This document shows, one piece after another, positions 27,616 through 41,503 of a stretch of DNA of 64,000 nt. The notes beneath the pieces were generated by a model. That model ran no database searches and was not told the origin of the DNA. It worked only from the letters and a program-made list of their open reading frames with translations. The translations under genes were made by a program, and so were the position numbers. Source of the stretch: an uncultured Alphaproteobacteria bacterium (lineage in GTDB: Bacteria > Pseudomonadota > Alphaproteobacteria > HIMB59); NCBI GenBank assembly GCA_902613845.1, contig CACMIW010000001.1:186001-250000 (forward strand), written 5' to 3'. How positions within the stretch are numbered: the first letter of the stretch is position 1; each line of letters begins with the position of its first letter.

Positions 27616-28920
27616 TTAGTAAGCTGCGTCTCTTCCGTCTTCTTTTGCAATTTCACGTGCATTTGGATTTACAGACGGTCTAAACGGAATTTCTACTATC
27701 TCTCCATCAACCGGTGTTCCAGGTGTATCACAATATTGATCAGGGAGATGAAATTTAAATTTATTTCCAATATCCTTTTTTTCATAAGGAACATATCCCA
27801 TCGCTATATTGGTTTCCAATTCTGGAGAGTACCAAGGAGATGTTAGATAACCTATAGGTGTCGATCCATCTTCAGATACGAGCCAAAAATCAGGTGCATA
27901 TTCATCAATTGGCTTACCCCCTAATCTAAATCCAACAAGTTGGTTACTATAAGGTTTTTCTCCTGCTTCAATTTTAGATCTCATAGCCTCTAGTGCTTGC
28001 TTGCCAATGTAATCTCCTTGTTTTTTTCTTGGAACCTGGTAGCCGAGGTTACATTGAAAAGGGTAAGTTTCAGCATCAAGATCTTGACCCCAAGATAAAA
28101 TTCCTGCAGCTATTCTTCTATGGTGTGCAGGTGCTATTACTTTTAGACTATGTTTCTTTCCAGCCTCTAAAACTGCATTCCACATATCATCTGCATACAA
28201 AGTTGCATCTCTGAGGTAGATTTCATATCCCTTTTCCCCAGTAAAACCTGTTTGGGAAATAATACAATCTCTCCCTCCAACTTTTGCTGCCATTAATCCA
28301 TAGTAAGGAATGTCTCTAACAGCATTTCCAACTAAATCTGCCATAAGATCGATTGACTTTGGTCCTTGAATTTGAACAGGAGATACATCTATTTCATCAA
28401 TTTCTACATTAAATTTTTTATCGTGATTTACGCCTTGAAGAAAAAACATAATATCAGAGTCAGATAGTGAAAACCAAAACTCATCTTCTGCAATTCTGAG
28501 TAATATAGGATCATTTAACACTCCTCCTTTGTCATTACAAAGAATTACATATTTTCCTTTCATTACTTCAATTCTTGTTGCATCTCTTGTGATAACAAAA
28601 TTTGTAAATTTTAACGCATCAGGTCCTTTTACACGAATTTGTCTTTCAACTGCTACGTTCCACATTGTTACGTGATTAACTAATGCATCATATTCAACCA
28701 TTGCGCCACCATCTTCAGGTTTTACATAACCTCTAGGATGATACATTCTATTGTATACGGTGCATCTCCAACATCCTGCTTCAACTGATAAATGCCAATA
28801 AGGATTTTTTCTAACTCTAGTCGATATAAGCATTTGTTGAGGCGTTGGTCCTGATTGCCTTAAATTAAAAGGGACTTTTCTGTCAGATTGGTCCACTGAA
28901 TTTGGTTGCTTAAGCTTCAT
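27616..28920 (-). CDS. DmdA/GcvT-like tetrahydrofolate-dependent demethylase
   Basis: A 434-residue single-domain GcvT-fold protein. TRVRKNPYWHLSVEAG and the pattern TMWNVAVERQIRVKGPDALKFTN, GVLNDPILLRIAEDEFWFSLSDSD and VQIQGPKS follow the DMSP demethylase DmdA and related O-demethylases (LigM/DesA) more than the glycine cleavage T protein. Such enzymes move a methyl group to tetrahydrofolate. It is longer than DmdA (about 370 residues) and the substrate is unknown: DMSP, a methoxy-aromatic or an N-methyl compound are all open. A strong AGGAGG site precedes it, and a MetF-like gene lies just upstream, as expected for oxidising methyl-THF. Confidence 0.8.
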   Translation of the reverse strand: MKLKQPNSVDQSDRKVPFNLRQSGPTPQQMLISTRVRKNPYWHLSVEAGCWRCTVYNRMYHPRGYVKPEDGGAMVEYDALVNHVTMWNVAVERQIRVKGPDALKFTNFVITRDATRIEVMKGKYVILCNDKGGVLNDPILLRIAEDEFWFSLSDSDIMFFLQGVNHDKKFNVEIDEIDVSPVQIQGPKSIDLMADLVGNAVRDIPYYGLMAAKVGGRDCIISQTGFTGEKGYEIYLRDATLYADDMWNAVLEAGKKHSLKVIAPAHHRRIAAGILSWGQDLDAETYPFQCNLGYQVPRKKQGDYIGKQALEAMRSKIEAGEKPYSNQLVGFRLGGKPIDEYAPDFWLVSEDGSTPIGYLTSPWYSPELETNIAMGYVPYEKKDIGNKFKFHLPDQYCDTPGTPVDGEIVEIPFRPSVNPNAREIAKEDGRDAAY

Positions 28921-29000: not shown

Positions 29001-29882
29001 TCAAAAGATTTTGTTGTGGAGGACTATTTTGTCATTTTCCATTGTAAAATCACCATTTTGAAGAGCATTTAACCAATGACAGGTCTTCTCGAAGCCACCA
29101 AAAGGAAAACAGTGAAAATTTTTAAATGAACTTTGTTCTTTAGAGAAGTTTGCTAATTCAATAAACATTTCATCGTTTGAAGTTTTTGTTAAAAGGTCAG
29201 TTACTTTAGATGAGTTCTTTTTCAAAAAACTTAATGAATTTCCAACACCACTCATTATGCCAAAATTAAGAAGTGTTTTAAAAGACGCCGGGCCTGGAAA
29301 GCCTACTCTGACGGGTAATTTTATATTTGAATTATCTAAAAATTTACACCATTTAATAAATGGTTCGGCATTAAAAAAAAATTGCGTAACAAGTTCTAAA
29401 TTTAAATTCTTATCTTTTGATAATTCATATTTTTTGTTCAAAAATTCGTTCACAGTATTTTGATCAATATCAGGTGAGCCTTCAGGGTGCCCAGCTATTC
29501 CTATTTCTTCAAAATCATTATCCTTTAATAAACCACACTCTAGTATTTCCAGTGAAGATGATACTGATCCATTCTGATTGCCTCCACCACCTATAACAAG
29601 AATTTTTTTACTATCTGTTCTATTCCTAAGTTCTTTTAGGAAGTCTGAAACATGATCTAAATCTTTCATTGTCCTTGCAGGCAAATGAGTAATAGGAGTT
29701 AATTCTTGTTTAGATACAAAATCAACAGTTTCTAAAATGTCGTTTTCCGTAGCATCAGGTAAATATGTTATGTAGACATTATTTTTTTTATCTAAAGGAA
29801 TCGACTGTAGTTTGTGTCTTACTTTTGGGTTAAGCTCTACGGTAAAGCCATCAACTAAAGAAACAATATTTTCTTTGATCAT
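29001..29882 (-). CDS. Methylenetetrahydrofolate reductase-like protein (MetF family)
   Basis: A 293-residue TIM-barrel protein with MetF landmarks: NVYITYLPDATENDI, THLPARTMK, ILVIGGGGNQNGS, IGIAGHPEGSPDI and LELVTQFFFNAEPFIKW (the folate/FAD-facing strand). MetF reversibly links 5-methyl-THF and 5,10-methylene-THF. The methyl-transferring demethylase downstream and the methylene-THF-forming dehydrogenases upstream suggest it runs towards oxidation here. The sequence is divergent from biosynthetic MetF, so I give no gene symbol. Confidence 0.8.
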   Translation of the reverse strand: MIKENIVSLVDGFTVELNPKVRHKLQSIPLDKKNNVYITYLPDATENDILETVDFVSKQELTPITHLPARTMKDLDHVSDFLKELRNRTDSKKILVIGGGGNQNGSVSSSLEILECGLLKDNDFEEIGIAGHPEGSPDIDQNTVNEFLNKKYELSKDKNLNLELVTQFFFNAEPFIKWCKFLDNSNIKLPVRVGFPGPASFKTLLNFGIMSGVGNSLSFLKKNSSKVTDLLTKTSNDEMFIELANFSKEQSSFKNFHCFPFGGFEKTCHWLNALQNGDFTMENDKIVLHNKIF

Positions 29883-29900: not shown

Positions 29901-32375
29901 TTAAGACTTTAATCTATTATTTTCTGGGTCGAGCAAAGGTTCCTCAGTAACTGTTAATGGATACCTTTTGCCAAAGTACTCGACTTCTAACTTATTTCCT
30001 TTTTCTGACAATTCTGATGGTAAATATCCATAAACGATGTGTTTATCAACAAAATAGCCATAATTTGTACTTGTAACGTACCCTACAGCTTTACCATTTG
30101 AATAAATCGGTTCTGTGCCTAAGGCCATTCCTTCAGGGTCATCAATAATCATACAAGTAAGTTTCTTTTCAATTGGTTTTTCTTTTATTTTTTGAAGTGC
30201 ATTCTTACCAATAAAATCATCATCTTTTTTAAGCTTTACCGTAAAGCCTAAGCCTGATTCATAAGGGTTGTAATTTGTATGAATATCTGTACCCAGTGAT
30301 CGATAGCCTTTCTCCAATCTGAGTGACTCAAAAGCACCAGCACCTGAGCAAATCATGTTGAACTCTCTTGAGGTTTCTCGAAGTTCATCCCATAATGATA
30401 GCCCATACTCGGTAGGTGTATATATTTCCCAACCTAATTCACCTATGTAAGAAATTCTTACAGCAACACAAGGAATGTTACTGATTGAAATCTTTTTTAT
30501 ATGGAAGAATGGAAAACCTTCGTTAGATACATCATCATCATCACACAGTTTTTCAAGAACAGATCTTGAATTTGGTCCCCATAAGCCAATACCTGCAAAA
30601 GCAGATGTCCAATCTATGATCTGAACACTTCCATCATCAGGAGCATTTGCTCGAAGCCAACTAATATCAATCATTCCATTCCCAGCTCCTGCCAAGACCC
30701 AAAATTTATTTTCCTCAAGTCTACTAATTGTAAGATCACTCTTTATACCACCATACATATTAGAAATTACGCTATAAACAACTTTACCTACGGCAACATC
30801 AATATTATTTGTGCAAACTTTCTGCAATAATTTAAGAGCACCTTTTCCACTTACTTCAATTTTCACAAATCCTGTAATATCAAACAGGGCACCAGTTTGT
30901 CTTGTTACAAGATGTTCAGCTGCTTGAATAGGTGACCAATATTTTGCAGCCCAGCCTGTTCTATTTGGAAAGTTTTTACCTTTAATTAATTCAGCATTTG
31001 ACTCATACCATTGAGGTCTTTCCCAGCCCATAGTCTCAAAGAAATGTGCTTTTTGTCCTTCTAATTGAGAATAAAATGGACTTCTTCGTAGTGGTCTTGG
31101 CTGCTCCATTTGTTGAAGTGGGTGAATAATGTCATATACCTCTTTATAATTCTGCTTACCTCTAGACCTTAGATATTTCCTGACATGATGATGTTGATGA
31201 AAACGATTGATATCTCCTTGACGAACATCAAGTTCAGGCTCTCCATTTACTATCCACTCTGCCATAGCTTTTCCAACACCACCTGCATGTGTTATCCATA
31301 CAGCATTAGCGGTCCACAAACCTTTTACACTTGTCTCACCCATCAAAGGGTTACCATCAGTTGTAAATGAAAAAATTCCATTAATTTTTTTTGTAAGTTT
31401 TTTCTCAGAAAATCTTGGGAACAACCAATTCGACTCTTTATGTGCACCTTCAAAATCATCAGGTCTAAAGTCCACCAAAGAAGGCATTTCTTCAGCATCT
31501 TCAGGTTTCTTTAATTCTTCTGACTCTAAAATTCTTGGTTCATGTCTATAATTTCCAATAACATAAGTATCATTCCATTGTCTGAAATAGAGACTGTAAT
31601 CTTGGTGACGCATCAATGCGTGTTCAACCAAAGCTTCTTTGTGATCAGCTTTAAATTCTTTTAATTCTTCAAATGGTTCTAACCACACCATTTGATGTTC
31701 GCAGGGAACTAGGGGTAATGATATGTTTGCAAGCCTTCCCATTTTTGGAGCCCAGATACCAGTTGAGACAAGTACAATATCGGCTTCATAATCTCCCTTA
31801 GATGTTTGAACTCCACGAATTTGATTATTCTGAATTTTAAATCCATTAACTGCTGTATCACCAAAGAATTCCCCTGCTTTTAAATCAGTGACATATTTTG
31901 CCATTGCTCGCACGGCTCTTACAGGTGCTGCTAAACCATCAGTTGGAACATAATATCCCCCGTGAATTTTTTCTGGATCAATATAGGGGCTCATTTTTAA
32001 AACTTCATCTGGAGTAATTATTTTTGCATCAGTTAATCCATAACTGTGAGCTATACCAAGTTTTCGATAAAGGTCTTGATGTCTCTCTTTTGTCTTTGAT
32101 ACTTCAATTCCTCCAACAGTATGAAAACAAGGTTTTCCCTCAAATGATAAGGATCTAAGTAAGTCAACTGTGTACTGTGCAAATTTACACATCATTCGTG
32201 AAGGATTAGTTTGAAAAACACCTCCTGGTGCATGACTTGTAGAGCCTCCAGTTTCAAACAATGGCCCTTGATCAAGTATAACCATATCTTTCCAACCCAA
32301 TTGAGCTAAATGATAGGCAGTGCTCGCTCCAACAATACCACTACCAACGATTATTATTCTTGATTTTCTTGCCAT
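29901..32375 (-). CDS. Dimethylglycine/sarcosine dehydrogenase-like FAD protein with GcvT domain
   Basis: An 824-residue two-part enzyme. The N-terminal FAD oxidoreductase (1 to about 400) has IIIVGSGIVGASTAYHLAQLGW and STSHAPGG, whose His48 matches the covalent-FAD His of mammalian DMGDH and SARDH. The C-terminal half (about 430-824) is a GcvT-type tetrahydrofolate domain, with GALFDITGFVKIEVSGKGAL and GELGWEIYTPTEYG. The family oxidatively removes N-methyl groups and traps formaldehyde as methylene-THF. It follows soxG by 58 bases. Dimethylglycine is the likeliest substrate, because sarcosine is covered by SoxBDAG. Confidence 0.88.
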   Translation of the reverse strand: MARKSRIIIVGSGIVGASTAYHLAQLGWKDMVILDQGPLFETGGSTSHAPGGVFQTNPSRMMCKFAQYTVDLLRSLSFEGKPCFHTVGGIEVSKTKERHQDLYRKLGIAHSYGLTDAKIITPDEVLKMSPYIDPEKIHGGYYVPTDGLAAPVRAVRAMAKYVTDLKAGEFFGDTAVNGFKIQNNQIRGVQTSKGDYEADIVLVSTGIWAPKMGRLANISLPLVPCEHQMVWLEPFEELKEFKADHKEALVEHALMRHQDYSLYFRQWNDTYVIGNYRHEPRILESEELKKPEDAEEMPSLVDFRPDDFEGAHKESNWLFPRFSEKKLTKKINGIFSFTTDGNPLMGETSVKGLWTANAVWITHAGGVGKAMAEWIVNGEPELDVRQGDINRFHQHHHVRKYLRSRGKQNYKEVYDIIHPLQQMEQPRPLRRSPFYSQLEGQKAHFFETMGWERPQWYESNAELIKGKNFPNRTGWAAKYWSPIQAAEHLVTRQTGALFDITGFVKIEVSGKGALKLLQKVCTNNIDVAVGKVVYSVISNMYGGIKSDLTISRLEENKFWVLAGAGNGMIDISWLRANAPDDGSVQIIDWTSAFAGIGLWGPNSRSVLEKLCDDDDVSNEGFPFFHIKKISISNIPCVAVRISYIGELGWEIYTPTEYGLSLWDELRETSREFNMICSGAGAFESLRLEKGYRSLGTDIHTNYNPYESGLGFTVKLKKDDDFIGKNALQKIKEKPIEKKLTCMIIDDPEGMALGTEPIYSNGKAVGYVTSTNYGYFVDKHIVYGYLPSELSEKGNKLEVEYFGKRYPLTVTEEPLLDPENNRLKS

Positions 32376-32433: not shown

Positions 32434-32955
32434 TTAAAAGTTAACCGCGTCAATAAGACGATCTTCAAGATAGTCAGCAAATGATCGATTACAACTAAGT
32501 AATAATTTAAGATCAAGATTAAAAATAGAACAGTCTACTCTAGCTAATAATGTTTGCGCGGCAGTGGATTTTTTAAAGGATTTTTCTCTAAAGTCAAAAT
32601 GCGTTAATTTATTTAATATGTCAAAACTATTTTTTCCTTGAATTTCAAAAAATACTTGTGAGTCAGAAATATTTGTAGCTAATATTAAGGGTGATTTATT
32701 TAAATCATCTAATATTTTGTTGAGCTTTTTAATTTCAATTTCTTTTTCAAATATTAAATTCCATTGATCAAAAGACATTTTTGCTAAAGTATAATTATCA
32801 TTTGAAATTATCCTTAAATTATCTGATGGTGGTAAAAGCTTCAAAGATTTGTTTATGTGATTATTAAATTTTGAGTCACCAGATCCTCTTAACAGAATTT
32901 GTTGTATAACTTTTTTTTTTATTTCAATACCATCAGATCGGATTACTTCAGTCAT
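32434..32955 (-). CDS. soxG: Sarcosine oxidase gamma subunit
   Basis: A 173-residue protein with the truncated GcvT-like fold typical of SoxG: LRGSGDSKFNNHI..., FFEIQGKNSFDILNKLTHFDFR and SFKKSTAAQTLLARVDCSIF. SoxG is the least conserved subunit of heterotetrameric sarcosine oxidase, and its position right after soxA with an ATGA overlap makes the call firm. It helps assemble the tetramer and has no cofactor of its own. Confidence 0.88.
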   Translation of the reverse strand: MTEVIRSDGIEIKKKVIQQILLRGSGDSKFNNHINKSLKLLPPSDNLRIISNDNYTLAKMSFDQWNLIFEKEIEIKKLNKILDDLNKSPLILATNISDSQVFFEIQGKNSFDILNKLTHFDFREKSFKKSTAAQTLLARVDCSIFNLDLKLLLSCNRSFADYLEDRLIDAVNF

Positions 32956-35930
32956 GAAACTAACCTTTTATTATCTTCATCATAAAAAACGGGTTTTACT
33001 ATATCCACACCAGTTGTACTCATACTTGATGTAGAAGCGTAAGCTTTTGTTCCAATCATTGAGTGGCCATTTTTTATAATAGCTAATGCAAAATCATGAC
33101 CTAATGTAGAACTATAATAACAGGATGTAATATGACCAAGCATTGGGACAGGAGATTTAATTTCTTTATCAAGAATAATATGTTGTCCTTCCTCTAGTTT
33201 ATCGGCTTTATTCGAGGGAATTATACCAACAAGTTGTTTTCTATCTTCTCTTATAGTATCAGAACGAGTAAGTGATCTTTTACCTAAAAAATCTTTTTTT
33301 GATTTACCAATCATCCAGCTAAGTCCCAAATCTATAGGCGTTATAGAACCATCTGTGTCTTGGCCAACAATAATGTAACCTTTTTCTGCTCTTAAAAGAT
33401 GCATTGCCTCTGTGCCGTAGGGAGCAAGACCAAATTCTTTTCCAACACTTTGAATGTTATCCCAAATTTTAGGGGCACTATTTGAAGGAATATATATTTC
33501 GTAACCTAACTCCCCGGTAAAGCTTGCTCTAAGAATTCGTATTGGGATACCATTAAATTCATGAAATTGGAAAGTCATAAATGGAAATTCCTCATTGCTA
33601 AATTTGATATTTGGAAAGGCTTTTTTCATAATTTCTCTGGTTTTTGGTCCACTAATGTTGAAAGTTGCATATTGCTCCGTAATCGAGTTCATAAAAACTT
33701 TTAAATTTGGCCACTCGGTTTGAGCATATTCTTCCATGCAACCTAAAACAGTTGCAGCACCTCCAGTAGTTGTAGTGGCAATAAAATGCTGATCAGAAAT
33801 TTTACAAATTATCCCATCATCTTTTACCATTCCATCTTCCCCCAACATAAGAGCATACCTTGCAGAACCTTGTTTCATCTTAGTAAAACTGTTTGTGTAA
33901 ATTAAATTCATAAATTCCAACGCATCCTCACCTTTGATCTCAATTTTTCCTAATGTGCTACCATCTAAAATACCTGCGTTTTCTCTTACATTTATGCTCT
34001 CTCGTTGAATAGCATCATGCATAGACTCATCCTTATTAATTTGAAAATACCATGGCCTTTTCCATTGCCCGACATTCTCAAAAATTGCACCATTTTTTAA
34101 GTGCCAATTATGTATTGGTGATTTTCTCTCTGGGTCATAAAACTCATAGCAATTTCTGCCGGCTATTGCAGAAAAACTTAAAGGAGCATAGGGTGGTCGA
34201 TAAATAGTTGTGCCAACTTCATTTACTTTTTTATCCAGAAGATCAGAAACTATTCCAAGTGCGTTAATACTACTTATTTTACCTTGATCGGTTCCCATAC
34301 TATTTGTTGTATATCTTTTTAAATGTTCAATTCTATCAAAACCCTCTGTTATTGCTTGACGGATATCTTTAGTTGTTACATCATTTTGTAAGTCAATAAA
34401 TGATTTAGCCCATAATGATTTCTTTTGCGGAGAGACCTCCCACAATTTTTCAATGTTATACTTAGTGTTTGTATTTAATTCGAGTTTTACGTCTAAATTT
34501 TTGACTTTAAAAGTTTTCAATTTTTCATTTACATCAGAATTTAAATTATCAAAATTAAATTGTCCTGAAGCAGAACCAAGAGTTATGGTAGGTTGAAAAG
34601 GTTTTGAAGGTTTGTAAGTTAAATCTCTCTCATCCCAATCTAATAAACCTTTTGATTGAGTAAACAAGTGAACATCAGGATTTATTCCACCTGACAAACA
34701 TAAGCAGTCACATTTAACTTCATTTAAAGCACCAGAACTATCCTCAACAAGAATTTTTTCAATTTTTTTGTTTCCAAATGCTCCTTTTATTTGTGAATTT
34801 GTGTAGAGAGGTACATCATTTCTTCTTATCAAGTCAAACAAATTTGGCTCAATTTCTTTCCCGGATCGTGAGTCGATATATGCTTTTGGTTTTAAACCAG
34901 CTTTTATAAGACTATAAACTAAGCTGTTTGAATTCGAATTATTACTGAAAATAACAGGTTCTTTAGAAGGTGCTAGTCCATATCGGCACATATATTTTTC
35001 AAAGGAAGAGCTTAACATTATGCCTGGGAGATCATTATTTTGAAAAGATAAAAATCTCTCAATGTGTCCATTACATAATATTGTGTGACCTGTGCGTATC
35101 TTATGTAAAGTGCTATTAACTTTTCCTTCTATCGGTTTATAGCCAACAAATCTATCTTCAATGGCTATAAGATGATTTATGTAATTATAAGTTGTAACAA
35201 GTGTGTTCTTTAAAATCTTTACATTCTTGGATTCTTCTATTTCTTGTATAGTTTCTTTTAACCAATCTTTAGGCTCTTTATTATCTATTAATGAAATTTT
35301 GTTTGAATTATTGATAATGCCGCCAAGTTGCTCTTCAAATTCAATTAATAGCACATCATAATTTGAGTTGATGAAAGATTTGGCTGCTAGAAGTCCATTT
35401 AATCCTCCCCCTATAATTGTAACATCGACGTTGTGATGGATATGATTGCTTATGCCTTTGAAATCTTTGGGAGGTTTACCCAATCCAGCGGCCCTTCTAA
35501 TAAGGGGTTCATACAAATTTTTCCAAAATTTCTTATGCGGCCCCATGAATGTTTTATAGTAAAAACCAGCAGTAAAAATTGGGGAAAATAAGTTATTGAT
35601 ACTTCCAAAATCGTTTTCAAGAGAAGGCCATCTGTTTTGACTTTCAATTTCCATACCTTCATAAATTTTTTTTATAGTTGCTCTTGTGTTTGGTTCGGAA
35701 TATTCACTAATTATTTGGACTAGAGCGTTTGGTTCTTCTATACCACATGTATAAATTCCTCTTGGCCTATGGTACTTAAAACTTCTTCCGACAAGGTTAA
35801 TATTATTTCTTAATAGAGCTGAGGCTATAGTATCACCTTTGTAGCCAAAATATTTGACCCCATCAAACTTGAAGCTAATTTTTTGATGAAACTGAATAAA
35901 TTGATTTTCTTTTAAATTTATAGATTTCAT
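32952..35930 (-). CDS. soxA: Sarcosine oxidase alpha subunit
   Basis: The 992-residue alpha subunit binds NAD and tetrahydrofolate. An N-terminal ferredoxin-like part has GDTIASALLRNNINLVGRSFKYHRPRG-type features (about 30-60). Next comes the nucleotide-binding domain (VTIIGGGLNGLLAAKSF, about 170), a second dinucleotide region, and a C-terminal GcvT domain (about 600-980: GSTLGKIEIKGEDALEFMNL, GELGYEIYIPS, LRAEKGYIIVGQDTDGS). It oxidises sarcosine to glycine and methylene-THF together with SoxB, D and G. It overlaps soxD and soxG by four bases each. Confidence 0.96.
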   Translation of the reverse strand: MKSINLKENQFIQFHQKISFKFDGVKYFGYKGDTIASALLRNNINLVGRSFKYHRPRGIYTCGIEEPNALVQIISEYSEPNTRATIKKIYEGMEIESQNRWPSLENDFGSINNLFSPIFTAGFYYKTFMGPHKKFWKNLYEPLIRRAAGLGKPPKDFKGISNHIHHNVDVTIIGGGLNGLLAAKSFINSNYDVLLIEFEEQLGGIINNSNKISLIDNKEPKDWLKETIQEIEESKNVKILKNTLVTTYNYINHLIAIEDRFVGYKPIEGKVNSTLHKIRTGHTILCNGHIERFLSFQNNDLPGIMLSSSFEKYMCRYGLAPSKEPVIFSNNSNSNSLVYSLIKAGLKPKAYIDSRSGKEIEPNLFDLIRRNDVPLYTNSQIKGAFGNKKIEKILVEDSSGALNEVKCDCLCLSGGINPDVHLFTQSKGLLDWDERDLTYKPSKPFQPTITLGSASGQFNFDNLNSDVNEKLKTFKVKNLDVKLELNTNTKYNIEKLWEVSPQKKSLWAKSFIDLQNDVTTKDIRQAITEGFDRIEHLKRYTTNSMGTDQGKISSINALGIVSDLLDKKVNEVGTTIYRPPYAPLSFSAIAGRNCYEFYDPERKSPIHNWHLKNGAIFENVGQWKRPWYFQINKDESMHDAIQRESINVRENAGILDGSTLGKIEIKGEDALEFMNLIYTNSFTKMKQGSARYALMLGEDGMVKDDGIICKISDQHFIATTTTGGAATVLGCMEEYAQTEWPNLKVFMNSITEQYATFNISGPKTREIMKKAFPNIKFSNEEFPFMTFQFHEFNGIPIRILRASFTGELGYEIYIPSNSAPKIWDNIQSVGKEFGLAPYGTEAMHLLRAEKGYIIVGQDTDGSITPIDLGLSWMIGKSKKDFLGKRSLTRSDTIREDRKQLVGIIPSNKADKLEEGQHIILDKEIKSPVPMLGHITSCYYSSTLGHDFALAIIKNGHSMIGTKAYASTSSMSTTGVDIVKPVFYDEDNKRLVS

Positions 35931-36277
35931 TTCTCAACCGTAAAATTACCTGAACCAACTTCTGGTTCCCCAGATGGCGTTTTAACAACACTTTTGAAAT
36001 TATTTAAATTTGGTTTTTTTTCATCGAGCTTGTAGGTCACCAAAATTTCATCAGTAGATGTATCTCTAACACAATTAAACCATTTTCGACAACCATGTGT
36101 GTGAACCCAGCGCTCATAAAACAAACCTTTTGGATTCGCTCTTATAAAGACATATTCTCCCCATTCACGATCACCAATTTCTTTTGATCCATCGGGTCTT
36201 TTTACATGCGCTTCTCCTCCATTTGAAAATTCCGATTGATCTCGTGGGCCGCAATAAGGGCAATTAATTATAAGCAT
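35927..36277 (-). CDS. soxD: Sarcosine oxidase delta subunit
   Basis: A 116-residue zinc-binding subunit. Cys6 and Cys9 in NCPYCGPR and His59 and Cys63 in HTHGCRKWF occupy the positions of the four zinc ligands known from heterotetrameric sarcosine oxidase. GEYVFIRANPKGLFYERWVH is the conserved core. It lies five bases after soxB and overlaps soxA by four, giving the standard order soxB-soxD-soxA-soxG. Confidence 0.96.
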   Translation of the reverse strand: MLIINCPYCGPRDQSEFSNGGEAHVKRPDGSKEIGDREWGEYVFIRANPKGLFYERWVHTHGCRKWFNCVRDTSTDEILVTYKLDEKKPNLNNFKSVVKTPSGEPEVGSGNFTVEK

Positions 36278-36282
36278 ATTTA

Positions 36283-37533
36283 TTAATGTGCTACGGCTGC
36301 AGCACCGTGTTCGTCGACTAATCTTCCACTTGCAAATCTATCAAGATTAAAAGCACTATTAATTTGATGAGGTTCATTTTTTGCAATGGTATGTGCAAAA
36401 ACATTTGCACTTCCAGGAGTAGCTTTAAAACCACCTGTTCCCCAGCCACAATTAAAAAATAAACCATCAATGTCACATTTACTAATAATAGGACTAGCAT
36501 CTGGGCAGATATCAACAATACCACCCCATTGACGAAGCATTTTCATTTTGCCAAATACTGGATAAAGCTCGACCATAGCTCTTATAGTATCTTCAATAAT
36601 ATTAAAACCACCTCTTTGAGTGAAAGAATTATAACTATCGGTTCCTGCTCCAATAACTAATTCACCTTTATCAGATTGACTGACATAAGCATGAACTGCA
36701 GATGACATTACCACGGTATCAATAATGGGTTTGATTGGTTCAGAAACAAGAGCCTGAAGTGGCTTACTTTGTAAAGGCAATCTGATACCTGCACTCTCTG
36801 CTAAAACACCAGTATGCCCTGAAGCAACAACTCCAATTTTATTCGCCCTTAAAAAACCCTTGGAAGTTTCGACACCTTCTATTGTTCCATTTTTAGTCCT
36901 AATTTGATGTGCCTCACAATTTTGAATTATATCAACACCCATCTCATCAGCACGCATTGCAAAACCCCATGCTATTGCATCGTGTCTTGCTACACCACCA
37001 CGAGGTTGGTAAGACGCACCTAGTACTGGATATCGAAGATTGTCAGTGTTCATGATAGGAACCTTTTTTTGAATTTCTTCTTTAGATAACCAAAATGAGT
37101 CAATACCATTTAAATTATTCGCGCTCACTCTTCTTTTAATTTCTTTTATATCATGTTCGTTGTGAGCTAAATTCATTACCCCTCTTTGACTAAACATCAC
37201 ATTGTAATTGAGTTCAATTGATAGGTTTTCCCATAACTTCAAAGAGTGTTCGTACAAATGAGCACTATCATCCCATAAATAATTTGATCTTATAATAGTG
37301 GTATTTCTTCCTGTGTTACCTCCACCAAGCCAACCCTTTTCGATTACAGCAATATTTTTTAATCCATGTTCTTTTGCTAAGTAATATGCAGTTCCTAGTC
37401 CATGACCCCCACCACCAATTATTATGACATCATAAAACTCTCTAGGTTCCGGGCTTCTCCACATTTTTGGCCACTCTTTATGGCCAGATAGTGCATTTTT
37501 AGCAAGGCTAAATATTGAATATTTTTTCTTCAC
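36283..37533 (-). CDS. soxB: Sarcosine oxidase beta subunit
   Basis: The 416-residue flavoprotein subunit. The FAD site is [20 protein letters not shown] (about 34-53), and [15 protein letters not shown] carries His184, the position of the residue covalently bound to FMN in the tetrameric enzyme. [15 protein letters not shown] near the C terminus is also conserved. Length and motifs match the classical SoxB. It starts 28 bases after the dioxygenase-like gene. Confidence 0.97.
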
Positions 37534-37561: not shown

Positions 37562-38392
37562 TCAGCTAGTTATTTTCAGGGGCGAATTGTCGTTAATTTT
37601 TTTAAATATTTTTGGAAACTTCCATTGTAAATCGCAGTCTACATTTGGGGCTTGAGCTGAACTATTTAAGTCGTTTTCACAAATAGTTCTAATTTCAAAG
37701 CTTATCCTCGTATTTTCAGACTTTTCTTTTGATGAGCTATGTAAGTGGGCACCTGAAAAACATAAAATTTCTCCTGGTTTTATAGTTACTGGAATTTTAT
37801 TAATATTGCTGGGCAAGTCCTCTTTTAATTGTGGTGCTGAGGGATAAGAAAAATCACCTTTTTTTCTATTGGCTAAATAAATGTTTAAGTCCCAAGTCGA
37901 AGTAGTGTTTTTAACTGGAACATCAAAATAATCTGGATAAAAAATCATAGTATTTTTTTCCTCAACATTGCTGACTGGTGCCCACCAATTAATTTGTTGA
38001 TACAAATTTGTGCCCCAAGTATCACGATGAATATTTATTCTAGATGCTTCTCTGTAAGGTAAGTTATTTTCTGCTGGTGCTACTCTAACTACGAATCGAT
38101 CCCAAAAGGTCCCACCTTTGTTATACCCAATTTCGTTTAAAAAGTTTGTAAATAGTTTTCTAAAAGTTTCGTGGTTTTTTAATTTTGATACAATATCTTT
38201 ACTTATATCTTCAGAATTTTTTAAATAGTGTATTTTTTCTAATTCACCTTCATAAATAACTTGTACTTTTTTTTTTATTTGTTTGACTAATTCATTTGAT
38301 GTTTTTGATTTTTGAAATACAAAAATTTTTCCATTGAAAATATTTTTTTTAAATTCTTGAAGATTTGAAATTTTTTCTATTGGTGTGAACAT
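37562..38392 (-). CDS. Putative Fe(II)/2-oxoglutarate-type dioxygenase (PhyH-like)
   Basis: A 276-residue soluble protein. INIHRDTWGTNLYQQINWW supplies an HxD pair (His122, Asp124), and LCFSGAHLHSSSKEKSENTRISFEIRT supplies a distal His (216 or 218) and Arg229. This is the 2-His-1-carboxylate plus Arg arrangement of Fe/2OG oxygenases such as phytanoyl-CoA or ectoine hydroxylases. No ortholog is recognised. It starts at the base after the pfkA stop and is followed by soxB. That suggests, but does not prove, a role in making or hydroxylating a substrate that feeds N-demethylation. Confidence 0.65.
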   Translation of the reverse strand: MFTPIEKISNLQEFKKNIFNGKIFVFQKSKTSNELVKQIKKKVQVIYEGELEKIHYLKNSEDISKDIVSKLKNHETFRKLFTNFLNEIGYNKGGTFWDRFVVRVAPAENNLPYREASRINIHRDTWGTNLYQQINWWAPVSNVEEKNTMIFYPDYFDVPVKNTTSTWDLNIYLANRKKGDFSYPSAPQLKEDLPSNINKIPVTIKPGEILCFSGAHLHSSSKEKSENTRISFEIRTICENDLNSSAQAPNVDCDLQWKFPKIFKKINDNSPLKITS

Positions 38393-39475
38393 TCACTTTA
38401 TATCACCAACATATACTCCAAGAGCTAAAGCAGTTTCAATCAGAGGATCAGATCTATCCACAACTTTATAAGTTGAAATTCCCTCACTAATTGGAACATC
38501 GACAACTTTTCTATCTTTCCAGGCGACCATTCTTCCAAATTTTCCTTTAGCAATTAAATCAACAGCATAAACACCAAACGCACTTGCTAAAATTCTATCA
38601 CGTGGAGTAGGGGGCGCACCTCTTTGAACATGCCCTAAAGAAGTAACCCTGCATTCTATGTCAGTGCTTTTCATTATTTCCTCTGATAAATAGTTTCCTA
38701 TACCACCAAGTCTTTTTTGACCATCGGCGTACTCAATAGTATAGCTTTTTCCATTTTCTGTTTTTACTGCCTCTGCTACAACAATTAGAGAATGCACAAT
38801 TCCTCTATTTTTCATTTCTGTTAGTTTATTAACTATTCCTTTTATGGAGTAATTTAATTCAGGAATTAGGATTACGTCAGCTCCACCAGCTATACCAGCA
38901 TTAATGGCTATATGCCCAGCATCTCTCCCCATAACTTCTAAAATCATTGTTCTTTGATGGCTAGCAGCAGTTGTTTGTAAGTTATCAAGTGCTTGAGTAG
39001 CAACATTTACGGCAGTATTAAAACCAATTGAGCTTTCAGTAGCCCCAACATCATTGTCAATTGTTTTCGGTATGGCCACAATATTTAAATCACCCCTCTT
39101 AGCAATTTCAGTTAATATCGACATACTTCCATCACCTCCTATAACAATAAGTCCATCAAGCTCTAACTCTTTGTAACCATCAATAATGTCTTGAGATCTA
39201 TCTTTATATTCACCATCAGGCATTGGAAATTTAAAAGGATTACCCTTACTCGTTGTTCCCAAAAATGTCCCTCCTTGTCTAAGAAGAGAACCACTAAAAG
39301 TTTGATAATCTAATGGAACATAAGCTACAGGTCTTTGCATTAATCCAACTGTACCATCACGAATTCCCATAACTTCCATCTGGTATGTATTCTTTGCTCT
39401 AAAAAATATCGATCTTACTGCTGCATTTAAACCACCACAGTCCCCACCACTTGTTAGAATTCCAATTTTTTTCAT
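38393..39475 (-). CDS. pfkA: 6-phosphofructokinase
   Basis: A 360-residue PfkA-family protein: GILTSGGDCGGLNAAVR, VIGGDGSMSIL (113-121), PKTIDND (136-142, catalytic Asp), MGRDAGHIAI and LGHVQRGAPPTPRDR. Two residues that separate ATP from PPi enzymes read Gly116 after the GGD and Lys137 before TIDND. PPi enzymes usually have Asp and Lys, and the E. coli ATP enzyme has Gly and Gly; Gly plus Lys is known from actinobacterial ATP-dependent enzymes. Phosphoryl donor is therefore probably ATP. It abuts the ROK kinase upstream, giving fructose to fructose 1,6-bisphosphate in two adjacent genes. Confidence 0.93.
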   Translation of the reverse strand: MKKIGILTSGGDCGGLNAAVRSIFFRAKNTYQMEVMGIRDGTVGLMQRPVAYVPLDYQTFSGSLLRQGGTFLGTTSKGNPFKFPMPDGEYKDRSQDIIDGYKELELDGLIVIGGDGSMSILTEIAKRGDLNIVAIPKTIDNDVGATESSIGFNTAVNVATQALDNLQTTAASHQRTMILEVMGRDAGHIAINAGIAGGADVILIPELNYSIKGIVNKLTEMKNRGIVHSLIVVAEAVKTENGKSYTIEYADGQKRLGGIGNYLSEEIMKSTDIECRVTSLGHVQRGAPPTPRDRILASAFGVYAVDLIAKGKFGRMVAWKDRKVVDVPISEGISTYKVVDRSDPLIETALALGVYVGDIK

Positions 39476-40396
39476 TTAAAATTTATCTGAGTCCCACAAC
39501 CATGCTGCTCCTCGTACTCCGCTTGAGTCACCATGAGTATTTTGCAAGATCTTATTTCTTACTTTATCACTAAATGTATATTTAGGAAGTAGTTTTGGAA
39601 TATTTGAATAAAGTCTTTCAATATTAGACATACCCCCACCTAAAATTATAACATCAGGGTCGACTATACCAATCATGACAGCAATGAGCCTAGCAAACCT
39701 ATCCTCATATAAGTCAAATTCTTTTTTTGCACGTTCGTCTCCATTTAATTCTAAATCTACTATTTCTTTAGTTGTGAAATTTGTTTTATATTTTCTATTG
39801 AAAATATTAGTAAATCCAATACCAGAGATAAATTGTTCTGCACATAATGGTCTGCCACAATTATCAACTGGACATTTCAAATTTAAATCCCACTCCTCTT
39901 TTCTAGGGTAGGGTAATGGTTGATGACCCCAATCTCCTGCAACCTGATTTACACCCTCAACTACTTTTTTGTTATGAACAAATGAACCTCCAAAACCAGA
40001 TCCAATTATTACTCCCCAGACAGTATTATAATTTGCACCAGATCCATCAATTGCCTCTGATAATGCAAAACAATTTGCATCATTCATTATTTTGATTTCA
40101 CGATCTAGACTCATTTCTAGGTCTTTTTTGAATGGTTTTCCATTTAACCAAATACTATTTGCATTTTTTATCAAACCATTTTCTTTAGAGGAAGACCCAG
40201 GTATCCCGATCCCAACTGAATTTTTAGAATTAGTGTGCTTATCAAATTCTTCAACTAAATTTTTTATTGTATTAACACCACTTTCATAATTTTTTTCATA
40301 ACCTGACCTTTTTCTAAGAATTTCTTCTCCTTTATCATTGATTAGAATACCTTCAATTTTCGTTCCACCGTAATCAATGCCTATTTTATAATTCAT
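39476..40396 (-). CDS. ROK-family sugar kinase, probably fructokinase (Mak-like)
   Basis: A 306-residue kinase. IGIDYGGTKIEGILI is the ROK phosphate loop and Asp106 in MNDANCFA the catalytic base. The zinc site is His158 (GHQPLPYP) with Cys175, Cys180 and Cys185. The stretch from HQPLP to EQFISGIGF closely follows E. coli Mak manno(fructo)kinase, including the short insertion before the cysteines, though the usual CxCG pair is spaced more widely here. Product would be fructose 6-phosphate for the PfkA encoded next. It is divergent from the gene at 40496 across 99 bases. Confidence 0.85.
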   Translation of the reverse strand: MNYKIGIDYGGTKIEGILINDKGEEILRKRSGYEKNYESGVNTIKNLVEEFDKHTNSKNSVGIGIPGSSSKENGLIKNANSIWLNGKPFKKDLEMSLDREIKIMNDANCFALSEAIDGSGANYNTVWGVIIGSGFGGSFVHNKKVVEGVNQVAGDWGHQPLPYPRKEEWDLNLKCPVDNCGRPLCAEQFISGIGFTNIFNRKYKTNFTTKEIVDLELNGDERAKKEFDLYEDRFARLIAVMIGIVDPDVIILGGGMSNIERLYSNIPKLLPKYTFSDKVRNKILQNTHGDSSGVRGAAWLWDSDKF

Positions 40397-40495
40397 AATT
40401 TAGATAAATATTTAAAACATTATATGTTTTTGATATTTCATTAAAATCTTTAATTTAATTAGAAATAACACTGAAACAGGTGTAAGTTTTTTTCT

Positions 40496-41503
40496 ATGAA
40501 AAAGAAGATTATAAATTGGGGAATTCTAAGTTCGGCAAAAATCGCTTGGGAGCATGTAATACCCGCTATTCTAAAATCTAAAAATAGCAAATTAGTTGCT
40601 ATTGCAAGTCGCAATACATCACGGGCTAAAAAATTAGCACAAAAATTTAAAATCGACAAAAGCTATGGCTCTTATCAAGAGCTTTACAAAGATCAAGAAA
40701 TTGATGTCATATATAACCCTTTACCTAATCATTTACATATCAAATCAAGCATCGAAGCATGCAAAAACAAAAAAAATATCTTATTGGAAAAGCCTATATC
40801 ACTAAAAGCGACAGACATTGACCCTTTAATGAAATACGCTTCTGAGAATAAAGTTGTCATCAAAGAGGCTTTTATGGTTAGACATCATCCTCAATGGCAA
40901 TGGGTGAAAAAATATATAAAGTCAGGAAAATTAGGATCAATATCAAGCATTTCAACAGTATTTTCATACAATAATAAAAATCCTAAAAATATAAGAAACA
41001 TTAAAAAATTTGGAGGAGGAGCTATTTATGATATTGGATGTTATCCCACTGTAATATCAAGATTTTTGTTAGATAAAGAACCAAAGAGAGTTGTTGGGTT
41101 AGCAAAAAATGATAAAAAATTTAAAACAGACATACTTTCATCTGTAGTTTTAGATTTTGGAGAAATATACTCATCTTTTATTGTTGCAACTCAAAGTACT
41201 TTATCTCAACAAGTAACAATTTTAGGTACAAAAAAAACTTTGATACTAGAAAATCCTTTTAATGCGATTGCAACTAAGCCCACAACAGTAGTTATTTACA
41301 ATGGAAAATCTATTTATCGTAAAGAAAATACAATAAAAGTCTTCCCAGCAGCTGATCAATATGAGCATCAAGTTACAAAATTTTCTAATGAACTATTGAA
41401 TAAGACTAAAGCAGATTATGACTTAATAGATGCAAAAAAAAATATGAAGGTATTAGATGCAATATTTGTTTCTATAAAGAAAAATAAGTGGATTAAAATT
41501 TAA
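40496..41503 (+). CDS. Gfo/Idh/MocA-family NAD(P)-dependent dehydrogenase
   Basis: A 335-residue oxidoreductase: N-terminal Rossmann fold NWGILSSAKIAWEHVIPAI, the family EKPIS (catalytic Lys near residue 98) and a C-terminal alpha/beta domain with GGGAIYDIGCYPTVISRFLL. The middle pattern (GAIYDIGCY) resembles NADP-dependent D-xylose 1-dehydrogenases and glucose-fructose oxidoreductase. A sugar substrate is likely but not determined. It is a single plus-strand gene facing the convergent aldo/keto reductase 29 bases away. Confidence 0.85.
   Translation: MKKKIINWGILSSAKIAWEHVIPAILKSKNSKLVAIASRNTSRAKKLAQKFKIDKSYGSYQELYKDQEIDVIYNPLPNHLHIKSSIEACKNKKNILLEKPISLKATDIDPLMKYASENKVVIKEAFMVRHHPQWQWVKKYIKSGKLGSISSISTVFSYNNKNPKNIRNIKKFGGGAIYDIGCYPTVISRFLLDKEPKRVVGLAKNDKKFKTDILSSVVLDFGEIYSSFIVATQSTLSQQVTILGTKKTLILENPFNAIATKPTTVVIYNGKSIYRKENTIKVFPAADQYEHQVTKFSNELLNKTKADYDLIDAKKNMKVLDAIFVSIKKNKWIKI

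Follow-up and report, generated by a model that had tools for sequence, protein, structure and literature searches.

A predicted PhyH-type oxygenase gene in the dimethylglycine and sarcosine oxidase operon of the HIMB59 group of marine alphaproteobacteria

We analysed a window of 64,000 nucleotides from an uncultured alphaproteobacterium (contig CACMIW010000001.1, positions 186,001 to 250,000) and found that a gene for a small putative Fe(II)/2-oxoglutarate oxygenase, which we call OXY, is part of a conserved operon in its genus, the HIMB59 group (Table 1). The link of OXY to methylated-glycine catabolism holds beyond this one genus. OXY probably contributes the oxidation of a methylated compound, and we hold with about even confidence that it serves folate-linked breakdown of methylated glycines as an accessory oxygenase, acting on a methylated osmolyte upstream of dimethylglycine.

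Table 1 Features of the OXY locus in the window.
Feature	Position	Strand	Basis
DmdA-like GcvT-family protein, 434 aa, presumed THF-dependent demethylase	27616..28920	-	NF009133, 3TFH
MTHFR-like protein	29001..29882	-	no NCBIfam match of its own; similarity to sister-family protein
Dimethylglycine oxidase (DMGO) type flavoprotein with THF domain	29901..32375	-	best PDB match 1PJ5
soxG, sarcosine oxidase gamma	32434..32955	-	PF04268
soxA, sarcosine oxidase alpha	32952..35930	-	PF17806, PF01571, PF13510
soxD, sarcosine oxidase delta	35927..36277	-	PF04267
soxB, sarcosine oxidase beta	36283..37533	-	TIGR01373, 671 bits, above cut-off
OXY, predicted PhyH-type Fe(II)/2-oxoglutarate oxygenase, 276 aa	37562..38392	-	ORF, motif, profile matches
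R229 codon of OXY, presumed 2-oxoglutarate-binding arginine	37706..37708	-	invariant in 22 homologs
H218 codon of OXY, presumed distal iron ligand	37739..37741	-	invariant in 22 homologs; H216 not
H122-R123-D124 codons of OXY, HxD iron-binding motif within HRDTWG	38021..38029	-	invariant in 22 homologs; DNA read directly
pfkA, 6-phosphofructokinase, abuts OXY upstream	38393..39475	-	PF00365, 316 bits; upstream in all genus loci

OXY is a real gene. The pfkA stop codon and the OXY ATG are adjacent (38393/38392), and 28 bases separate the end of OXY from soxB (37533), which confirms the reading frame, the abutment and the spacing given in a preliminary description of the locus. The genus sample comprised 52 genomes, the source genome (G000) included; a one-contig genome of 1.41 Mb (G030) is one which we take to be that of strain HIMB59. 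Of the 52 genomes, 44 have an OXY frame uninterrupted by stops, with two copies ending at contig ends, and the gene is present in every genus genome which has a soxB ortholog. The eight genomes without OXY also lack that ortholog, and so look like assembly gaps. The dN/dS ratio of OXY among near relatives is about 0.07-0.11, indicating purifying selection. It is a fast-evolving gene: identity in the deepest clade of the genus is 53% for OXY, versus 82-86% for soxB and pfkA and 91% for the DmdA-like protein. The soxG gene evolves about as fast (44% identity in that clade), with dN/dS of up to 0.4 and near-saturated dS.

Motif and profile matches place OXY among the PhyH-type Fe(II)/2-oxoglutarate oxygenases, as had been suggested earlier. 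H122, R123, D124, H218, R229 and R235 are invariant in 22 homologs with identities down to 21%. H122, D124 and H218 correspond to the 2-His-1-carboxylate triad of the superfamily, and R229 lies 11 residues past H218, within the spacing of about 10-12 characteristic of the 2-oxoglutarate-binding arginine. The preliminary description placed the HxD motif at 122/124 and the arginine at 229, as found here, and left the distal histidine as either 216 or 218; since H218 is invariant and H216 is not fully so in the same 22 homologs, the distal ligand is taken to be H218. The family has a signature of its own, HRD[TSN]WG..N...Q.NWW.P, plus an APNvD tail.

OXY scores 15.2 bits against PhyH (PF05721), under the gathering threshold of 22 bits, and 9 of the 22 family members match this profile at E <= 0.01 (best 5e-5). 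The NCBIfam model TIGR04324, a 2OG-Fe(II) oxygenase, matches OXY with E of 6e-8 and 32.4 bits, under its cut-off of 150, and also matches 19 of the 22 members. Searched against the PDB, the family profile gave weak matches to the PhyH-type enzymes PtlH and CytC3, while the single OXY sequence gave chance matches only (phmmer). An AlphaFold2 model of OXY, made with 11 close relatives, has a pLDDT of 35, too low for the double-stranded beta-helix of the superfamily to be judged from it. One genus member (G046:C5) carries a true TIGR04324 gene, above cut-off, in a separate and unrelated cluster (L073:7463-8947), where it adjoins a second, weakly matching paralog which is 26% identical to OXY. A literature search for "sporadic carbohydrate cluster" returned no papers.

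The window shows the gene order pfkA-OXY-soxBDAG-DMGO-MTHFR-like-DmdA-like, all on the minus strand, and by gene content the neighbours of OXY cover every step from dimethylglycine to glycine. The flavoprotein downstream of soxG scores 728 bits with N,N-dimethylglycine oxidase (1PJ5) versus 399 with DMGDH, and is therefore considered an oxidase rather than a dehydrogenase. The MTHFR-like protein is 38% identical to a protein of the sister family, itself a weak match to methylenetetrahydrofolate reductase. The DmdA-like protein, whose best PDB match is the GcvT-like 3TFH, scores 268 bits against its nearest curated model, that of the DMSP demethylase DmdA (NF009133, cut-off 410). It is 66-80% identical across scattered alphaproteobacteria and may itself be an enzyme, so far uncharacterised, that demethylates an onium compound with THF as acceptor.

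The linkage to soxBDAG claimed for OXY proved strict within the genus. All 43 genus loci examined have the pfkA-OXY order, and wherever the contig is long enough OXY is followed by soxB-soxD-soxA-soxG-DMGO, down to 53% OXY identity. In HIMB59 and two further genomes (G013 and G009), the MTHFR-like and DmdA-like genes are present and colinear after DMGO. The ROK gene is inverted in the deepest clade, with pfkA-OXY-soxB still together. Upstream of pfkA, the ROK kinase and GFO oxidoreductase genes (39476-41503) are 90-99% identical to those of the window in a few close genomes and about 79-83% identical in most others, versus 97-98% for flanking genes, which suggests cassette recombination.

Beyond the genus the family is seldom met: when 385 alphaproteobacterial genomes were searched with a profile, about 20 scattered non-genus genomes had members, at 21-30% identity to OXY, and there are a few further members in other classes. 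The viral contigs searched held no OXY relative. Several of the distant neighbourhoods resemble that of the window. In G344, DmdA-like, MTHFR-like, formate-THF ligase (FTHFS), OXY and DMGDH genes run in one direction, with soxBDA divergent. In G281, OXY is followed by a DmdA-like gene, and DMGDH lies about 8 kb away; the DmdA-like proteins adjoining OXY in G344 and G281 are 70% and 79% identical to that of the window. In G461, the order is OXY, an MTHFR-like gene on the opposite strand, DMGDH and then pfkA. In G115, OXY is divergent from soxBDAG-DMGDH, and behind OXY lie a GbcA-like Rieske gene and an SDR gene. The pfkA of G461 (L176:10833-14343) is 53% identical to that of the window and convergent to the DMGDH gene beside OXY, an arrangement that echoes the pfkA-OXY adjacency. 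G260 has a 174-aa DmdA-like fragment (L175:10212-10736, minus strand) 12 bases upstream of its OXY homolog, possibly a decaying gene. Other homologs lie beside clpX, ribosomal protein L9, carotenoid, flagellin or acyl-CoA synthetase genes.

The rate of this linkage is above chance: OXY lies no more than 5 kb from a gene for a folate-dependent demethylase (GCV_T-type) in 4 of 16 non-genus lineages, versus 0.37 expected from GCV_T gene counts (P about 3e-4), with the count for G281 coming from a separate analysis. As G344 and G461 group with the unlinked G246 in the OXY tree (support 90-91) and may share an ancestor, the independent cases number three to four and not surely four. Only groupings within the family were used from this tree, because the TIGR04324 outgroup chosen for rooting has branches of >3.8 substitutions per site and falls inside the ingroup. 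OXY and the DmdA-like gene also co-occur in five genera outside their own genus versus 0.56 expected, P = 6e-5 in a calculation that treats the genomes as unrelated; in three of these five cases (G127, G397 and G461) the two genes are apart in the same genome, and about half of the genera with a DmdA-like gene have it without OXY. The linked lineages and the co-occurrence are our reasons for extending the link beyond the genus.

The preliminary description asked whether orthologs co-occur with sox genes, and expected the proposal to fail if they lay mostly elsewhere. OXY is linked to DMGDH, sox or DmdA-like genes in four other alphaproteobacterial lineages, which is above chance but not universal: it is away from GCV_T-type, sox and DMGDH genes in 12 of the 16 distant lineages, so that this objection is partly borne out. 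This means either that family members differ in role or that the genes need not be linked. Since OXY is only 21-30% identical across lineages in which the DmdA-like protein keeps 70-80%, the same substrate cannot be assumed for all of them. Open-access papers yielded nothing on a link between an OXY-type family and folate-dependent demethylation, and the connection of this small PhyH-type family to that chemistry is apparently unrecognised so far.

The neighbouring enzymes, DMGO (or DMGDH in other lineages) and SoxBDAG, would carry out the dimethylglycine and sarcosine steps and pass the methyl groups to tetrahydrofolate. OXY most likely holds Fe(II) through H122, D124 and H218 and 2-oxoglutarate through R229, and would oxidise a small methylated onium compound such as glycine betaine, another quaternary amine or a related osmolyte, releasing succinate and CO2. 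The chemistry could be removal of an N-methyl group as formaldehyde or hydroxylation of a carbon, and the product would enter the sequence dimethylglycine to sarcosine to glycine. The gene, its motif and superfamily, the operon and the recurrent linkage are observed; the catalysis, the substrate class and the pathway position are here inferred from sequence and gene context.

OXY had been proposed to fill a missing first demethylation step, since neither a Rieske monooxygenase nor a methyltransferase was reported in the window. This premise is not supported: the DmdA-like gene in the same operon is a GcvT-family candidate for such a step, with the MTHFR-like gene beside it, and the source genome also encodes a BHMT homolog (best PDB match human BHMT, zinc cysteines aligned) adjoining a DMGDH. 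Absence of a methyltransferase-type first step was accordingly rejected. OXY is thus one of three betaine-to-dimethylglycine candidates in the genome and would not be its sole entry route. Neither a Rieske oxygenase alpha subunit nor an MtgB-type methyltransferase was found in the source genome; the source subclade likewise has no Rieske alpha subunit, and the genus members tested have no MtgB. A Rieske system elsewhere in the genome, with the gene unlinked in relatives, had been named as grounds for doubt, and for the source genome these results favour OXY, but HIMB59 keeps OXY despite three Rieske proteins, one of them GbcA-like, and on this account we rejected a role for OXY as the substitute for an absent Rieske enzyme. 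The GbcA-like protein of HIMB59 sits with trimethylamine monooxygenase, TMAO demethylase and a second sox operon (L113, G030:C1:1212001-1231000), whose soxB is 54-56% identical to that of the window. OXY is absent from the sister family f2, which does carry soxB, FTHFS and MTHFR-like genes and, in G052, a DmdA-like gene; in the f2 loci (L105-L112), FTHFS and MTHFR-like genes precede the soxB ortholog where the genus has pfkA-OXY. Given the BHMT and DmdA-like genes of the source genome, the retention of OXY beside Rieske enzymes in HIMB59 and its absence from f2, we regard OXY as most plausibly an accessory entry step that is specific to certain lineages.

We weighed this accessory role against other explanations. 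OXY could itself be the first N-demethylase, converting glycine betaine to dimethylglycine and formaldehyde with 2-oxoglutarate and O2 in place of GbcAB, BHMT or MtgBCD. Its position before a complete set for dimethylglycine, sarcosine and glycine, the lack of Rieske and MtgB enzymes in the source subclade, and DMGDH as the next same-strand gene after OXY in G461 and G344 are consistent with this. We nevertheless think it unlikely: BHMT adjoins DMGDH in the source genome, a DmdA-like demethylase shares the operon, HIMB59 has OXY alongside its Rieske enzymes, f2 runs the pathway with no OXY, and our search of open-access papers found no 2-oxoglutarate-dependent betaine demethylase. The earlier suggestion of a 2-oxoglutarate oxygenase as an alternative first step is therefore retained for its connection to methylated-glycine genes but not as a specific, missing betaine demethylase. 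It is possible, though doubtful, that the DmdA-like protein performs the first demethylation, transferring a methyl group from an onium compound to THF, with the resulting 5-methyl-THF re-oxidised by the MTHFR-like protein, and that OXY hydroxylates or cleaves a different and larger osmolyte (for example of carnitine, proline-betaine or sulfonium type) to supply it. A MetF paralog of R. pomeroyi proposed to oxidise methyl-THF during betaine demethylation (PMC12478193) offers a precedent, and the DmdA-like and MTHFR-like genes accompany OXY in f1 and G344, as the DmdA-like gene alone does in G281; the genus-level co-occurrence with OXY agrees with such a division of labour, but the lack of OXY in about half of the genera with a DmdA-like gene argues against it.

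A role in carbohydrate or sugar-phosphate metabolism, tied to pfkA and the upstream sugar kinases and with the sox linkage as a by-product of genome streamlining, would explain why TIGR04324 is the closest named model and why pfkA abuts OXY in all genus loci and lies near it in G461. OXY is far under the TIGR04324 cut-off (32 of 150 bits), however, and its linkage to DMGDH, sox and DmdA-like genes recurs in unrelated genomes of 2-5 Mb, mostly with no sugar gene alongside, which leaves this explanation improbable. The family might also have no fixed pathway, the linked cases reflecting coincidence and clade inheritance, as the predominance of unlinked lineages and the grouping of G344 and G461 with G246 would allow. 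Three independent cases would still be surprising where about 0.37 are expected, and the co-occurrence with the DmdA-like gene is a separate signal; we consider this very unlikely.

In the surface ocean, nitrogen and one-carbon units are exchanged to a large extent as glycine betaine and related osmolytes. How aerobic bacteria begin to break these compounds down had been resolved only in part (PMC12478193). A small oxygenase family that recurs beside dimethylglycine and sarcosine demethylases, and that is present in a streamlined marine group with a cultured strain (HIMB59), offers a candidate for one more oxidative entry that can be tested directly, and its DmdA-like and MTHFR-like neighbours are just as open to testing. 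Should OXY turn out, against our expectation, to N-demethylate glycine betaine or another quaternary amine aerobically, with 2-oxoglutarate and without cobalamin, it would represent a fourth kind of entry beside GbcAB, BHMT and MtgBCD.

Among known systems, the GbcAB glycine betaine monooxygenase catalyses an oxygen-dependent step just before dimethylglycine, as proposed for OXY, but it is a Rieske protein and unrelated to it. SAR11-type BHMT and MtgBCD/MetF2, known marine entries to the dimethylglycine-sarcosine-glycine route (PMC3160333, PMC12478193), act by methyl transfer, whereas an oxidation is proposed for OXY. With the PhyH superfamily (phytanoyl-CoA hydroxylase, PtlH and CytC3), OXY shares the HxD...H...R arrangement and weak but repeated profile matches; it differs in its sub-threshold score, its own signature and a context free of CoA or carrier proteins. 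The TIGR04324 sporadic carbohydrate cluster oxygenase is its best-named full-length relative, but OXY occurs in a sox/DMGO context and not in a carbohydrate cluster, though pfkA and a ROK kinase lie upstream. Compared enzyme by enzyme rather than as an operon, the Arthrobacter-type dimethylglycine oxidase and heterotetrameric sarcosine oxidase are matched by the DMGO and SoxBDAG proteins of the window, to which its operon adds OXY, pfkA and the MTHFR-like and DmdA-like genes.
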